From assembly GCA_947503885.1 (NCBI GenBank), contig CANNFD010000001.1, forward strand, positions 1 through 64,000: DNA of 64,000 nt. Reading direction: 5' to 3'. The notes below the pieces were generated by a model, which worked only from the letters and a program-made list of their open reading frames with translations, ran no database searches and had not been told where the DNA came from. Source of the stretch: an uncultured Olleya sp. (GTDB taxonomy: Bacteria; Bacteroidota; Bacteroidia; Flavobacteriales; Flavobacteriaceae). A program made the translations under genes and the position numbers. This document shows positions 39,634-46,112 of this stretch, one piece after another; within the stretch, counting starts at the first letter, position 1, and each line of letters starts with the position of its first letter.

Positions 39634-40926
39634 TTAATGTAACAAAAACGATTTTAACTCTTCATAACTACCAATTTTAGTAGCTTCTTTTGTTTTATTC
39701 ATTACTCCTTTAATTTGCTTTGGTAGTGGTTGTTCTATTTTAATAACTTTTTCCACAACATCTAAAAACTTAGTTGGATGTGCTGTTTCTAAAAACACAC
39801 AATGTACGTTTGTATGAGCTTTTAAATAGGCTTTACAACCCAGATATCCAACAGCTCCATGTGGGTCTGCAACATAATTATAAGTATCGTAAATTTCTTT
39901 TAAAGCTATTTTAGTTTCGGTATCTGTAAAACTAAAAGACGATAAATTAGCTTTTAATTTACTAAAGTTGTTTTTATAAATTTCTTGAATTCGTATAAAA
40001 TTACTTGGATTACCAACATCCATTGCATTACTAATCGTTTGTACTGAAGGTTGCGGAGAATATTCTTCTGTTTTTAAATAATTTGTTACTACGTTATTTT
40101 GATTATTCGCAGCAATAAAATGTTTTATGGGCAAACCTAATTGTTGTGCCATCATTCCTGCACAAACGTTTCCAAAGTTACCACTTGGTACAGAAAATAC
40201 AATCTCATTATGTGTTTTGTGTAATTGTTTGTAGGCAAATATAAAGTAGAGTAGTTGCGGTAACCAACGTGCTACATTAATAGAGTTTGCTGACGTTAGT
40301 TGCATTTTACTTGTTAAATCTTGATCTAAAAAAGCACGTTTAACCATGTCTTGACAATCGTCAAAAACCCCATCGACTTCTAAAGCTTTTATGTTTTGGC
40401 CTAAAGTAGTCAGTTGCTTTTCTTGTATATCACTAACTTTTCCGGAAGGGTAAAGGATAACTACATTAACACCTTTTACGCCTAAAAATCCGTTAGCAAC
40501 AGCACCACCTGTGTCTCCAGAAGTCGCAACTAATACTGTAACTTGGTTAGTGTTGTTTTTGTTAAAGTAGCCTAAACAACGTGCCATAAATCGTGCACCA
40601 ACATCTTTAAATGCCATAGTTGGTCCATGAAACAATTCTAAAGTTGAAATAGATTCATTTAATTTTACAATAGGAAAATCAAAAGATAAAGTTTCTTTTA
40701 TAATTGTTTTTAAAACCGCTTCCGGAATATCTGGCGATACAAATTGATGTAATGCTTGAAAAGCTATTTCTGTATCACTTAAATTATCAATATTTTTAAA
40801 AAACGAAGCGGGTAAAGGTGTTATTGTTTCAGGAAAATATAAGCCTTTATCGGGTGCTAACCCTTTAATGACTGCTTCTTTAAAAGTTGTTTTTGGTGCT
40901 TTATGGTTTAGACTGTAATATTTCAT
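39634..40926 (-). CDS. thrC: Threonine synthase
   Basis: 430 residues, the long (class I) threonine synthase. The PLP lysine lies in FHGPTMAFKDVGARF, with the phosphate-binding ATSGDTGGAVA loop after it. It converts homoserine phosphate to threonine. The ATG immediately follows the thrB stop codon with no gap. Last gene of thrABC. Confidence 0.96.
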   Translation of the reverse strand: MKYYSLNHKAPKTTFKEAVIKGLAPDKGLYFPETITPLPASFFKNIDNLSDTEIAFQALHQFVSPDIPEAVLKTIIKETLSFDFPIVKLNESISTLELFHGPTMAFKDVGARFMARCLGYFNKNNTNQVTVLVATSGDTGGAVANGFLGVKGVNVVILYPSGKVSDIQEKQLTTLGQNIKALEVDGVFDDCQDMVKRAFLDQDLTSKMQLTSANSINVARWLPQLLYFIFAYKQLHKTHNEIVFSVPSGNFGNVCAGMMAQQLGLPIKHFIAANNQNNVVTNYLKTEEYSPQPSVQTISNAMDVGNPSNFIRIQEIYKNNFSKLKANLSSFSFTDTETKIALKEIYDTYNYVADPHGAVGYLGCKAYLKAHTNVHCVFLETAHPTKFLDVVEKVIKIEQPLPKQIKGVMNKTKEATKIGSYEELKSFLLH

Positions 40927-41850
40927 TTAGCTTAAAATTTTCATTCCTTGTGTATTAATTTTAGAGACGTATGTGTTAAAACTAATATTGGTTTTAGAAT
41001 ATGTGTTATGCATAGCTATTGCTACAGCTTCGGCATTTTTTTTACTTTGGGACAAGGCAAATATTGATGGTCCAGAACCCGAAATACCTACACCTAAAGC
41101 ACCTGCTTTTATAGCATCAGTTTTTACTTGATTAAAATACGGAATTAACTGACTTCTATGTGGCTCTACAACGACATCTATTAACGCCTGGCTTAATAAT
41201 TTATAGTCATTGGTATGTAAGGCGTGTACTAAACTTCCAACATTAGACCATTGTGTTATGGCATCTTGTAACGGAATATTTTTGGGCAATATAGCTCGTG
41301 CTTCAGAAGTTTTAACTTCTATTTGAGGATGAATAATTGTTGCATATAATTCCTTAGGTGTTGGTAATTGTAACACTTGTAATGGAGCAGTGCTTTTTAC
41401 TAAAGTAAAGCCTCCAAATAGAGCAGGAGCTATGTTGTCTGCATGCTCTGCACCACTTGCAACAGCTTCACCTTTCATAGCAAAACCTGTTAATTGTGTT
41501 GGGCTGTAAGGGTTGCCTAATAGTTGATTAATTGCAAACACACTACCAGCAGCGCTAGCAGAACTGCTTCCTATACCACTTCCAGGTTTAATATTTTTAT
41601 AGATTTCTATCTCAAAACCACAATCTGGATTTGCATGATTATATAAGGCTAAAGCCGATACACTAGCTACATTTTTTTCTGCTTCAAAAGGTAAATCTGC
41701 TCCAACTATTTTAGTGATTTTTATACCTTTAATGGGTGTTTTTCTAATCACCATTTGGTCACCAATGGTATCCAAACAAAAGCCTAAGACATCAAAGCCA
41801 CAGGACACATTGGCTACTGTTGCTGGAGAGAATATTCTGATTTCGTTCAT
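40927..41850 (-). CDS. thrB: Homoserine kinase
   Basis: 307 residues, GHMP kinase. ATP-binding motif PGSGIGSSSASAAG and the C-terminal GVGISGSGPSIFAL are typical of ThrB. Phosphorylates homoserine. It starts 36 bases after thrA and abuts thrC. Confidence 0.96.
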   Translation of the reverse strand: MNEIRIFSPATVANVSCGFDVLGFCLDTIGDQMVIRKTPIKGIKITKIVGADLPFEAEKNVASVSALALYNHANPDCGFEIEIYKNIKPGSGIGSSSASAAGSVFAINQLLGNPYSPTQLTGFAMKGEAVASGAEHADNIAPALFGGFTLVKSTAPLQVLQLPTPKELYATIIHPQIEVKTSEARAILPKNIPLQDAITQWSNVGSLVHALHTNDYKLLSQALIDVVVEPHRSQLIPYFNQVKTDAIKAGALGVGISGSGPSIFALSQSKKNAEAVAIAMHNTYSKTNISFNTYVSKINTQGMKILS

Positions 41851-41886: not shown

Positions 41887-44328
41887 TTATTTATTACCAA
41901 TTCTTATAATATCTGCAAATAATCCTGATGCAGTAACATCTGCGCCAGCACCAGCACCTTTAACAATTAAAGGTTGTTCTGGGTAGCGTTGGGTATAAAA
42001 CATGACAATATTGTCTTTACCTTCTAGATTATAAAAAGGATGACCTTCTGGAATTTCTTGTAAACCAACTTTAGCTTTTCCATTTTTAAATTTGGCTACA
42101 TATTTTAATTGACAATTATTAGCTTTAGCAGAAGCATATAGCTTTTGAAAATAAGCTTCGTCTTCAATTAAAGTATCATAAAAATGGTCTACAGTTGTAC
42201 TCTCTAAATTCTTTTTAGTTAAAAACGACTCGTTAATAATGTCTTCAATTTCCATAGTTACTCCGTTTTCACGAGCTAGGATTAATATTTTTCTAGCAAC
42301 ATCAATTCCGCTTAAATCAATTCTAGGGTCAGGCTCTGTATAGCCTTCTAATTGTGCTTGTTTAACCGTGTCATGAAAGTTTGTATTATCGTTAAAATTA
42401 TTAAATACAAAATTTAAACTACCAGATAAAACCGCTTGAATACTAATAACTTTGTCTCCAGATGCAACCAAATTATTAAGCGTGTTAATAATTGGTAATC
42501 CTGCACCTACGTTAGTTTCGTATAAAAATGGAGCATTATATTTAAGGGATAATTCCTGCAAGTTTTTGTAATTAGCAAATTTGTCTGCACATGCTATTTT
42601 ATTACAAGCTACTACTGCAACACTTTGCTTTAAGTAACTGTCGTAAATTGCTGCGACTTCTTTATTTGCTGTAACATCAACAAAGATGCTGTTTCTAAGA
42701 TTTAATGAGGTTGTTTTATTTAAAAACCCTGAAATACTAGCTTTTTCAGCATTTTTAAATGCTGTAGTCCAATTATTTAAATCAATACCTTTTGGATTAA
42801 ATAGCATTTTTTTAGAATTAGATAGTCCAACTATTCTAACATCTAATTTTAGATTTTTCTTTAAAAAATTATGTTGCTGCTGGATTTGCTGGATAAGCTT
42901 TTGACCAACATTACCAATCCCTGTAATAAAGACATTAAGTTGTTTTGTATTAACCTCAAAAAAGCGCTCGTGTAAACTATTTAAGGCTTTTTTTACATCA
43001 CTTTGGTTAATAACCGCAGAGATGTTTTTTTCTGAAGCACCTTGAGCAATAGCTCTAACATTAATATTGTTTTTACCCAAAGTGCTAAATAATTTTCCAC
43101 TAATACCCTGATGGCTTTTCATATTATCACCAATTAAAGCAATAATGGACAAGTCTTTTTCTATAATAATAGGGTTAATTTTGTGTAACGAAATTTCGTT
43201 TTCAAACATAGAATTAATCGCCTGTTCAGCTTGCTCTGCATCTTTGACATCAATTCCAAAACAGATAGAATGCTCTGATGATGCTTGCGTTATAAAAATG
43301 ATGTTTATTTTTTGATTTGCTAAGACTCCAAATAACCGTTTAGAAAATCCCGGAATACCAACCATACCACTTCCTTCAAGTGTTAATAAAGCAACATTGT
43401 CAATATGGCTAATCCCTTTAACTGTAAGGTTTGTGTCTTTTTTTTGATTAGATATAATTGTTCCAGTAGCTTCAGGTTGTAACGTGTTTTTTATATGTAT
43501 TGGAATCCCTAAATTTAATACAGGCTGCACTGTTGGTGGATATAAAACTTTAGCACCAAAATGTGACAACTCCATAGCTTCTTGGTAAGACAAATTGGCA
43601 ATTGGGTAAGCTTGTTTTACTAGTTTTGGATTAGTCGTGTACATGCCACTAACATCTGTCCAAATTTCTAATTGGTTTACTTTTAAAGCTGCTGCTATAA
43701 TAGCAGCTGTAAAATCTGATCCACCACGACCTAAAGTTGTAGTTTCTCCAGATTTAGATTTGGCAACAAAACCAGGTAAAATAGTAATTTGTTGGTTTGC
43801 TTTATTAAAGTAATCTATAGTATTTTTATTGGTAATGTCGTAATTAACTTCGGCTTTTGTAAAATCAGAATTAGTAATTATTAACTCTTGACTATTTTTT
43901 AAAACGGAGTTTATTTTTTTTTCTTCCATAATTTTTGAAATTATAAAAGAAGACAGTAATTCTCCGTGACTAACTAATTTATCTGATGTTTTTGGAGATA
44001 ATTCGTTAATTAAATAGATTCCATTAAGTAACTGTTTTAAGTTATCAAAGGTAGCATCTACTTTAACTATAATCGGTTTAGGGTTTAAAGCTAAATCATT
44101 AATAATTTTATAATGACTAGTTTTAATTTTTTCAAAAACCTTGTTGTAAGTGTTGTCTTTTTGTTTCGCTAATTCTCCAGCTTTTAATAATTTATCTGTT
44201 ATGCCACCAACCGCAGAAACCACACAAATTATTGGACTAGTTAAAGCCTCTTTTTCAAGAACATTTATAACTTTTTCTATATTTTGTGAAGAACCAACAG
44301 AGGTGCCTCCAAATTTTAATACTTTCAT
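41887..44328 (-). CDS. thrA: Bifunctional aspartate kinase / homoserine dehydrogenase
   Basis: 813 residues, the usual ThrA length. Aspartate kinase start KFGGTSVGS; LGRGGSDFTAAIIAAAL; two ACT-like regulatory segments (about 310-460, e.g. ITQASSEHSICFGI), which normally bind threonine; then homoserine dehydrogenase with the nucleotide motif FITGIGNVGQ (about 463) and the DLSGIDVARKILILARE active-site region. It commits aspartate to threonine, methionine and isoleucine. A consensus promoter, a leader-peptide gene and a long 5' leader precede it. Confidence 0.97.
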   Translation of the reverse strand: MKVLKFGGTSVGSSQNIEKVINVLEKEALTSPIICVVSAVGGITDKLLKAGELAKQKDNTYNKVFEKIKTSHYKIINDLALNPKPIIVKVDATFDNLKQLLNGIYLINELSPKTSDKLVSHGELLSSFIISKIMEEKKINSVLKNSQELIITNSDFTKAEVNYDITNKNTIDYFNKANQQITILPGFVAKSKSGETTTLGRGGSDFTAAIIAAALKVNQLEIWTDVSGMYTTNPKLVKQAYPIANLSYQEAMELSHFGAKVLYPPTVQPVLNLGIPIHIKNTLQPEATGTIISNQKKDTNLTVKGISHIDNVALLTLEGSGMVGIPGFSKRLFGVLANQKINIIFITQASSEHSICFGIDVKDAEQAEQAINSMFENEISLHKINPIIIEKDLSIIALIGDNMKSHQGISGKLFSTLGKNNINVRAIAQGASEKNISAVINQSDVKKALNSLHERFFEVNTKQLNVFITGIGNVGQKLIQQIQQQHNFLKKNLKLDVRIVGLSNSKKMLFNPKGIDLNNWTTAFKNAEKASISGFLNKTTSLNLRNSIFVDVTANKEVAAIYDSYLKQSVAVVACNKIACADKFANYKNLQELSLKYNAPFLYETNVGAGLPIINTLNNLVASGDKVISIQAVLSGSLNFVFNNFNDNTNFHDTVKQAQLEGYTEPDPRIDLSGIDVARKILILARENGVTMEIEDIINESFLTKKNLESTTVDHFYDTLIEDEAYFQKLYASAKANNCQLKYVAKFKNGKAKVGLQEIPEGHPFYNLEGKDNIVMFYTQRYPEQPLIVKGAGAGADVTASGLFADIIRIGNK

Positions 44329-44353
44329 TTTAAATAGTTTATTGATTGGATTT

Positions 44354-44370
44354 GTAGTTGTAAAAACTAC
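44354..44370 (-). promoter_or_regulatory. Hairpin in the thrA 5' leader
   Basis: GTAGTT-TTTAC-AACTAC on the thrA strand, between the leader peptide and the thrA start. It may be one arm of an attenuator or a translation-blocking structure; it lacks a following U-run. Confidence 0.4.
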
Positions 44371-44394
44371 TTGTATGGAAGGAGTATATAGCGA

Positions 44395-44451
44395 TTAACC
44401 CAAAAGGGTAAAGGTTATAATTAATGTGAAAATAGTGTGTCTTTTTTTCAT
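44395..44451 (-). CDS. Threonine/isoleucine-rich leader peptide of thrABC
   Basis: An 18-codon frame on the thrA strand, ATG at 44449-44451, TAA at 44395-44397, encoding MKKRHTIFTLIITFTLLG. Four of 18 codons are Thr (6, 9, 13, 15) and three Ile (7, 11, 12), clustered in the second half as in E. coli ThrL. It begins about 13 bases after the predicted transcript start and ends 66 bases before the thrA ATG. This composition and position fit an attenuation leader sensing Thr and Ile. Hairpins UAACC/GGUUA (spanning the leader's end) and GTAGTT/AACTAC (44354-44370) follow, but neither is trailed by a U-tract, so the mode of control is open. Confidence 0.65.
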   Translation of the reverse strand: MKKRHTIFTLIITFTLLG

Positions 44452-44470
44452 TTATTGCATCTATACCTAT

Positions 44471-44497
44471 CAAATGTATTACATTTACTGTTATCAA
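44471..44497 (-). promoter_or_regulatory. Promoter of thr operon
   Basis: On the minus strand TTG (plus 44495-44497), 16-base spacer, TACATTTG (plus 44471-44478). Predicted start near 44464, which leaves a 135-base leader in front of thrA. Confidence 0.65.
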
Positions 44498-44555
44498 AAA
44501 AACCAAACATCAATTTTTATTAGATTGATAATTAATAGACTATATAATATTAAAA

Positions 44556-46112
44556 ATGAAAATATTTTCTAAAGAACAAATTTATGAAGGTGATGCATTA
44601 ACTGCTAAAAAGCACGGGATTTCTTCGACAGATTTGATGGAGCGTGCAGGAACACAAATATTTAATTGGTTACACATGCGTATGCAAGGTGCCCAAGTAC
44701 CTATTCATGTTTTTTGTGGTATTGGTAATAATGGTGGAAACGGAATGGTTGTGGCTAGACACTTAACCACACATGGATATAACGTAAAAACCTATATTGT
44801 TAATTATAGTAAAACACGCTCTAAGAACTTTTTAAATAATTACGAGCGTATAAAAAGTACAACAAAAGATTGGCCTGTTTTATTAAATGACGCTTCAGAG
44901 TTTCCGGCAATAGGTGAAAAGGATATTATTGTAGATGCTATTTTAGGTATTGGTTTAAACCGACCAATTGAAGATTGGGTAAAACAATTATTTAATCATT
45001 TTAGAGCTACAAAAGCTTTTGTATTATCTATTGATATCCCTTCTGGATTAGCTACAGATAGCGCACCAACAGATCCTGAGTGTGTTGTAAATGCAAGTTA
45101 TACTTTAAGTTTTCAAACTCCTAAATTGGTTTTCTTTTTACCAGAAACTGCTAAATACACTGTACAATGGGAAGTATTAGATGTAGGTATCGATCCAGAA
45201 TATTTATATACCACTCAAACCGAAGCGGATTTAATTGGTAAAAATGAAGTGCTTCCAATTTATAAACCAAGAAATAAATTTAGTCATAAAGGAGATTTTG
45301 GACATGCTTTAGTTATTGGTGGTAGTTATGGAAAAATAGGAGCTGTTACATTGGCTAGTCAAGGAGTATTAGCTATTGGAGCAGGAAAAGTAACAGCATA
45401 CACACCAAAATGTGGCTATATACCATTACAAGTTGGTTTTCCAGAAGCAATGGTTATTACAGATACTAATGAAGAAAAAATAACTGCTATTAATTTTGAA
45501 ATAGAACCAACGGTTATTGCATTTGGAGTAGGAGTAGGTACTGATCCAAAAACTAGTACTGCTTTTGAAAACTTTTTAAAAACCAATAAAACACCTTTAG
45601 TTATTGATGCTGATGGGATTAACTTACTATCTAAAAACAAAGCGCTTTTAAAATATTTGCCAGAAAACACAGTACTAACTCCTCATCCAAAAGAACTTGA
45701 AAGACTAATAGGGAAGTGGAAAGATGATTTTGATAAGCTTAAAAAAACAAAAGTTTTTACAAAAAAACATAAATGTATAGTTGTAATTAAAGGTGCTAAT
45801 ACCATAACAGTCTATCAGGATAAATTATATATTAATGCAACAGGAAACCCTGGTTTAGCAACTGCTGGAACAGGTGATGTTTTAACAGGTATTATAACAG
45901 GGTTAATTGCACAAAATTATGATGCATTAGCAGCAACTTTATTTGGAGTCTATTTACATGGTAAATCAGCTGATTTATTAATTGAAGATTTAGGCTATCA
46001 AAGCTTTATTGCAAGTCATGTTATTGAAGGTCTACCGTTGGCCTATTTAGATTTGTTTAAACAACCAGAACAACCTCAGGTTGAAGAGGAAGAAAGTGAA
46101 AAACAAAAATAA
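44556..46112 (+). CDS. nnr: Bifunctional NAD(P)H-hydrate epimerase / ADP-dependent dehydratase
   Basis: 518 residues, two fused domains. The YjeF-N epimerase half (about 1-215) has CGIGNNGGNGMVVARHL and DAILGIGLNRP; the dehydratase half (about 235-500, ribokinase-like) has GDFGHALVIGGSYGKIGA, ADGINLL, LTPHPKE and NPGLATAGTGDVLTG. Together they repair damaged NADHX/NADPHX. A Gln/Glu-rich tail closes the protein before a terminator. Divergent from thrABC. Confidence 0.95.
   Translation: MKIFSKEQIYEGDALTAKKHGISSTDLMERAGTQIFNWLHMRMQGAQVPIHVFCGIGNNGGNGMVVARHLTTHGYNVKTYIVNYSKTRSKNFLNNYERIKSTTKDWPVLLNDASEFPAIGEKDIIVDAILGIGLNRPIEDWVKQLFNHFRATKAFVLSIDIPSGLATDSAPTDPECVVNASYTLSFQTPKLVFFLPETAKYTVQWEVLDVGIDPEYLYTTQTEADLIGKNEVLPIYKPRNKFSHKGDFGHALVIGGSYGKIGAVTLASQGVLAIGAGKVTAYTPKCGYIPLQVGFPEAMVITDTNEEKITAINFEIEPTVIAFGVGVGTDPKTSTAFENFLKTNKTPLVIDADGINLLSKNKALLKYLPENTVLTPHPKELERLIGKWKDDFDKLKKTKVFTKKHKCIVVIKGANTITVYQDKLYINATGNPGLATAGTGDVLTGIITGLIAQNYDALAATLFGVYLHGKSADLLIEDLGYQSFIASHVIEGLPLAYLDLFKQPEQPQVEEEESEKQK

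Follow-up and report, generated by a model that had tools for sequence, protein, structure and literature searches.

A conserved Thr/Ile-rich leader frame upstream of flavobacterial thrABC: a probable attenuator that lacks an intrinsic terminator

The threonine operon of gammaproteobacteria carries the thrL-type attenuator, which is listed in Rfam under the name Thr_leader. In the window, i.e. the entire 64,000-nucleotide stretch of DNA from an uncultured Olleya sp. that was analyzed here, a Thr/Ile-rich leader peptide frame is likewise found directly upstream of a bifunctional thrA followed by thrBC; unlike thrL, however, this element comes without a U-tract terminator, a conserved antiterminator pairing or an Rfam match.

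All features of the locus lie on the reverse strand. The controlled gene, thrA (41887..44328), encodes a bifunctional aspartate kinase/homoserine dehydrogenase I (NCBIfam NF006959, 1034 bits), and is followed by thrB (40927..41850), coding for homoserine kinase (NF002288 and TIGR00191), and thrC (39634..40926), coding for threonine synthase (TIGR00260); these NCBIfam matches bear out the gene identities proposed in a first-pass annotation made from the sequence. The leader frame MKKRHTIFTLIITFTLLG (44395..44451), a proposed Thr/Ile sensor, runs from ATG to TAA over 18 codons, with the Thr codons ACT, ACA, ACC and ACC and the Ile codons ATT, ATT and ATA, and the thrA ATG (44328) is placed 66 nt past its stop codon, just as that annotation had described. 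A promoter predicted by reading the sequence occupies 44471..44497, with TTG at 44497-44495 and, after 16 nt, the box TACATTTG at 44478-44471. The latter agrees with TAnnTTTG, the flavobacterial promoter consensus presented in passages of PMC9723704. The distance from this box to the leader ATG is 19 nt, and not the approximately 13 nt noted earlier. The two modest hairpins seen in the annotation are present, one at the leader end and the other in the spacer: hairpin 1, ACCC-TTTT-GGGT (44409-44398), overlaps the last leader codons, and hairpin 2, GTAGTT-TTTAC-AACTAC (44370-44354), is not followed by a U-tract here and covaries in a related clade. Between them is the box TATATACTCCTTCCA (44376..44390), the local form of the motif TATATATnCYTYCGTY recovered by motif search in the spacers. 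The spacer as a whole (44329..44394) contains 15 C and 3 G in its 66 nt, which makes it a candidate for the place where Rho loads or terminates.

We investigated the conservation of the leader frame using a starting set of 189 thrA upstream regions, comprising the window, 80 loci, a further 29 loci that are part and not all of the thrA matches of their search, and 79 of another 80 regions, with L190 left out because it has no ATG, GTG or TTG start. Removal of 11 duplicates resulted in 178 distinct upstream regions of family-level relatives. Our rule sought an ACCC..GGGT hairpin inside an open frame for which a start and, close by, a stop could be found. An ACCC(C)..(G)GGGT hairpin ending such a frame was found in 138 of the 178 upstream regions as against 11 of 1780 dinucleotide shuffles, and when at least two Thr were additionally sought in the last ten codons the respective counts were 124/178 and 1/1780. 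The 138 are spread over both parts of the collection (65/88 in L009-L099 and 72/89 in L100-L198, plus the window). As the rule itself prescribes both ACCC..GGGT and an open frame, the hairpin and the openness of the frame are fixed by selection in these 138. The composition of the frame is striking: 34% of the last ten codons before the hairpin specify Thr and 20% Ile, with typical leader ends such as ..GTTTIITTLWGC, ..TTITPLG and ..IIITPFGV, and the Thr-richness is confined to this frame, which the rule keeps open, while 33 and 75 stops interrupt the two alternative frames of the same 30 nt. At the level of the genus, seven distinct sequences from 13 loci show no indels in the leader ORF, while the spacer does contain them; the variable sites fall at codon positions 1, 2 and 3 in four, four and seven cases, a weak bias. 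Thus, the expectation that related genomes would carry a Thr/Ile-rich short frame before thrA, and that its substitutions would preserve the frame, is borne out by the comparison, with the ORFs of the genus being free of indels. We conclude that this tiny frame very probably senses threonine supply, and the earlier suggestion of ribosome-mediated attenuation in a flavobacterium finds support in its conservation.

Conservation extends beyond the codons. Counting from the ACC of hairpin 1, the leader stop codon starts after 6 nt in 13 of the 138 elements, after 12 nt in 47, after 15 nt in 66 and after a longer distance in 12, and hairpin 1 is retained across clades even though the reading frame downstream of it varies. 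The retention of the hairpin while the C-terminal frame shifts favors a role for it as RNA. Its arms are nearly invariant, and consequently no covariation was detected for it in the alignment. The box TATATATnCYTYCGTY emerged from 97 non-redundant spacers with a log-likelihood of 310, as against 40-42 for shuffled spacers, and is positioned about 19 nt after the start of hairpin 1. Hairpin 2 differs in sequence between clades and is fixed in position: its center lies 45-55 nt from the start of hairpin 1 in 75% of the elements versus 25% of shuffles (n=130), it beats its own shuffles in 113/130, and the median distance from its end to thrA is 39 nt. Within one related clade of 35 sequences, 6 of its 8 pairs display compensatory changes, amounting to 18 cells versus 3.8 in shuffles. 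A T-run after hairpin 2 occurs in a few relatives, e.g. L158 and L054, and is absent in most. Two alignments were compiled: A1, with 93 of 94 sequences picked from 131 (L193 being dropped as doubtful), and A2, with 35 of 39 picked sequences (L027, L049, L109 and L138 being dropped as out of register or unclear; L027 and L049 carry a hairpin of different sequence). Per-clade consensus folds recover hairpin 1, along with hairpin 2 in the Olleya group, and no alternative structure. With a z of only -1.04, the fold of the full 142-nt leader shows no unusual stability, and the structural claim hence rests on comparison and not on a single fold. Thus, comparison of sequences establishes as the conserved parts of this leader a Thr/Ile-rich frame, hairpin 1, the box and hairpin 2.

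The element, approximately 120 nt in length, appears to be distinct from the families collected in Rfam. A search of release 15 with the window recovered RNase P and three tRNAs elsewhere but no match to the thr element, and the elements of eight relatives yielded no matches at E up to 0.5. One recognizable copy was found per genome tested, the best match of our model R1 being at thrA in 11/11 genomes with no strong second match; since most of the thrA sequences helped to build R1, only this absence of strong second matches is informative. Six of the lesser R1 matches (L246-L251), four of which lie inside or overlap long frames, were considered as additional copies and judged to be due to chance.

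The real oddity of the thr leader is its absent terminator. None was detected in a terminator scan of 44250-44560, and the earlier remark that no U-tract terminator precedes thrA proved right across the family: in a single scan, terminator-like sites were present in just 3 of 138 thr elements, as opposed to 30 of 36 hisG, ilvD and pheA upstream regions drawn from 12 genomes including the window's own, a comparison that counts upstream regions and not proven leaders. Furthermore, two of the three thr sites are hairpin 1 itself ahead of a T-rich stretch. By gene, U-tract terminators were found in 9/12 hisG regions (L204, L206 and L210 being scored as having none despite a visible hairpin with a T-run), 12/12 pheA regions and 9/12 ilvD regions; some of the ilvD terminators may end another transcript, because a leader could be recognized in only 4/12 of these regions, the corresponding counts being 11/12 for hisG and 12/12 for pheA. 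U-tract terminators follow the His leaders, e.g. MNFIQSHHHHFHTCTQAS, and the Phe leaders, e.g. MSKQYFYNGFYFFFFFKRETGLL. Thus, within the same genomes, the thr element and the hisG, pheA and ilvD leaders have in common a short frame, enriched in the amino acid being made, that precedes the biosynthetic gene, but it is the latter that have U-tract terminators and the former that lacks one. The textbook his and phe leaders beside a terminator-less thr leader therefore offer a built-in comparison for how the position of a ribosome might be read out without an intrinsic terminator. The genome of the window itself codes for a His-rich hisG leader, MNFIQSLHHHFHTSTQAS (L209), a Phe/Tyr-rich pheA leader, MSTINTTYYSWYYFFFSKRNETLYM (L228), and an Ile/Val-rich ilvD leader, MSKQVIIIISIISIVIISRSQGML (L216), with terminator-like sites.

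The same distinction is seen in pairing. The his leader pairs with its own terminator arm at z >2 in 7/12 cases, the phe control being weaker (2/12), while antiterminator-type pairing between leader and spacer in the thr elements does not go beyond chance (mean z 0.09, >2 in 9/130). We also considered a long-range pairing between the 5' leader end and the box that was suggested by the fold of the window; across 127 relatives, its mean duplex score is 11.09 versus 10.67 with swapped partners (the highest of 20 swaps reaching 10.99), with z >2 in 12/127. We do not claim this pairing, as a few AT-rich clades are responsible for the slight excess and the statistics ignore kinship. These observations together lead to the conclusion that the thr element is a terminator-less variant of the Thr/Ile leader-peptide attenuators, which probably switches its genes off by a way other than a terminator hairpin.

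A candidate for that other way is offered by the composition of the spacer. Stretches with an excess of C over G are preferred by the termination factor Rho. The mean C-G skew is 0.445 in 130 thr spacers (those of the 138 with a distance of 40-110 nt from the leader stop to thrA) versus 0.013 in the 40 thrA upstream regions without the element; elsewhere, it is 0.039 for 44 genes of the window, and 0.059, -0.115 and -0.202 for the spacers of 11 his, 12 phe and 4 ilv leaders, respectively. Over the last 50 nt before thrA, G drops to 3-6%, as against 12-15% in 276 control genes. The genome also codes for rho (TIGR00767, 648 bits). The rho frame (L270) comprises 569 aa and the family model 415 positions, pointing to a likely extra stretch in this Rho; extended Rho is reported from Bacteroides. 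The spacer may thus be a stretch on which Rho can load, although its composition does not of itself prove loading, and hairpin 2 lies within it. Two considerations weigh against Rho: the fixed box and the covarying hairpin exceed the needs of a loose Rho site, and the C-over-G bias could be selected merely to keep the spacer unfolded. Nevertheless, as a C-over-G spacer and a rho gene are present and folding lends no support to a switch at the start of thrA, Rho-dependent attenuation is favored, and Rho-dependent termination appears to be the likeliest output of the thr leader.

We accordingly propose the following scheme, in which leader translation and stalling would have premature termination as their output and Rho as the agent. 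At the start of the thrABC mRNA, a short leader would be translated, with its Thr (and Ile) codons serving to sense charged tRNA. When threonine is plentiful, the ribosome would pass through hairpin 1, end at the adjoining stop codon and depart. The leader and the spacer with its box and hairpin 2, all C-rich and G-poor, would then be bare, such that Rho could terminate transcription before or early in thrA. When threonine is short, the ribosome would wait on the Thr codons just upstream of hairpin 1, where it would cover RNA needed for Rho loading and keep hairpin 1 folded or shielded next to the box, and RNA polymerase would then proceed into thrABC. The sign of this response assumes that the leader is part of the loading site, because a ribosome stalled upstream would by itself still leave Rho free to load on the spacer. 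A charged-tRNA-sensing Thr/Ile leader coupled to Rho-dependent premature termination is the best overall explanation, to which we would give about an even chance. More tentatively, and at clearly less than even chance, the locus may represent a distinct flavobacterial attenuator of thrABC, in which a Thr/Ile leader ending in a fixed hairpin is followed by a conserved box and a covarying hairpin that together replace the terminator and relay the position of the ribosome either to Rho or to a putative factor binding the box.

Several other explanations have to be weighed against this scheme. The first-pass annotation had allowed for control through Rho or on translation; while the former fits the C-over-G spacer, the latter is not supported by folding. 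Under translational attenuation, the leader ribosome would open or close the thrA start, with Rho polarity being at most a consequence, as at E. coli toiL-topAI. The absence of an intrinsic terminator is in keeping with this, as is a precedent published in PMC12121999, where a uORF regulates the translation of the gene behind it and Rho termination ensues. Nevertheless, the predicted unpaired probability of the thrA start region averages 0.536 when the ribosome occupies the Thr codons and 0.537 when it is at the stop (n=130), differing by >0.15 between the two leader states in just 1/130, although folding of such AU-rich RNA is a weak test. Moreover, leader and spacer show no conserved pairing (the mean z of 0.09 above), and hairpin 2 ends well short of thrA, at the median of 39 nt. 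We therefore regard this explanation as unlikely. mRNA processing or stability, with the AU-rich box between the hairpins as a cleavage or protein-binding site and a stalled ribosome protecting the transcript, would account for the strong fixation of the box, which is predicted to be single-stranded, keeps its distance from hairpin 1 and is surrounded by two conserved hairpins. Taken alone, this explanation leaves the C-over-G bias along the entire spacer unaccounted for, and no nuclease or binding protein was linked to the box in this analysis, making it decidedly unlikely.

Transcription attenuation might also work through pausing of the polymerase or through a dedicated factor for antitermination, whereby hairpin 1 and the box would serve RNA polymerase, together with NusA, NusG or another protein, as a pause or recruitment signal, and downstream termination would be independent of Rho. 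In having a conserved sequence at a constant distance behind it, hairpin 1 is reminiscent of pause hairpins in general; the element is also single-copy and at thrA in all 11 genomes tested. However, this mechanism still requires a terminator, and the box does not match the E. coli pause consensus, though that consensus may not be the one used by this polymerase. We consider it improbable. Finally, short frames are common and the codon-position bias within the genus is weak, such that the leader frame might be thought a chance or non-functional one. Against this, just one of 1780 shuffles, compared to 124 of the 178 real sequences, satisfies the rule once two or more Thr are demanded as well, and it is in the leader frame and not in the two stop-containing frames that the Thr-richness is seen. 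A chance frame is thus very improbable, and the Thr/Ile leader with Rho-dependent termination is retained as the preferred explanation.

The proposed mode of action has a counterpart in E. coli tnaC, a Rho-dependent system cited in PMC1262725 in which the position of the ribosome at the leader decides Rho loading next to the stop codon. As in tnaC, the position of the leader ribosome would, in our proposal, decide whether Rho loads near the stop codon; unlike tnaC, which stalls through its nascent peptide with free Trp, the thr leader presumably has scarce charged tRNA as its signal. Other E. coli uORFs tied to Rho are mdtU, which is linked to Rho termination at mdtJI in passages of PMC7815308, and that of topAI (PMC12121999). 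The conserved Cys leader peptides encoded before cys operons in mycobacteria, where PMC1262725 finds no obvious terminator and proposes Rho, resemble the thr leader in being conserved and terminator-less. However, they concern another amino acid and another phylum, and according to the authors their polyY motifs lack conservation and conserved hairpins are absent, whereas the thr element conserves hairpin 1, the box and hairpin 2. Comparable too are the attenuators of Flavobacterium psychrophilum, a member of the same family: parts of PMC9723704 report strong clues of leader-peptide attenuation before its amino acid biosynthesis operons, with the 5' elements before hisG and pheA being conserved in other genera. 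The name thrA has no occurrences in the main text of PMC9723704; the thr element may be in its supplementary list. Leader peptides in flavobacteria are thus already published, while a thr leader of Bacteroidota, and with it a published description of this element, was not found in the literature searched, which comprised open-licence papers only. As far as that literature shows, the control of amino acid operons and the action of Rho are little studied in Bacteroidota outside Bacteroides.

The phyletic distribution of the element points to both losses and variants. The rule fails in 40 of the 178 thrA upstream regions, including those of close relatives (L013-L017), indicating that leader control is dispensable. 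In the latter, which belong to Lacinutrix, Oceanihabitans and an uncultured relative, the leader is missing and a promoter-like AATACTTTTG is located some tens of nt upstream of thrA, an arrangement suggestive of loss of the leader segment. Among 15 class-level genomes outside the family with a long thrA, inspected by eye, the hairpin-1 type is present in four (L257, L258, L267 and L268), one has a variant (L261), one is doubtful (L266) and seven have none. In the remaining two (L262 and L265), a Thr/Ile leader is followed by a canonical U-tract terminator; thus, designs with and without a terminator both exist at thrA.

Two further features were noticed in these upstream regions. A dyad, AAATGTA-A-TACATTT (44472-44486), overlaps the -7 box of the thrA promoter. 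Among non-redundant thrA promoters, at least 6/7 dyad matches were found in 55/86 of those at loci with the element and in 4/10 of those at loci lacking it, as against none of 43 control promoters, and the exact pattern matched the thrA promoter in 7 of 8 genomes. It also precedes unrelated genes, which by eye include one that is trigger-factor-like and one tRNA; the candidate threonine-regulon operator was rejected, and no regulon is claimed, for this reason. The dyad may be either an operator or a strong-promoter feature. In two Mariniflexile loci (L025 and L030), an insert of about 90 nt, similar in both and made up of inverted halves, lies between hairpin 2 and thrA, about 85 nt before the latter; it may be a small mobile repeat.
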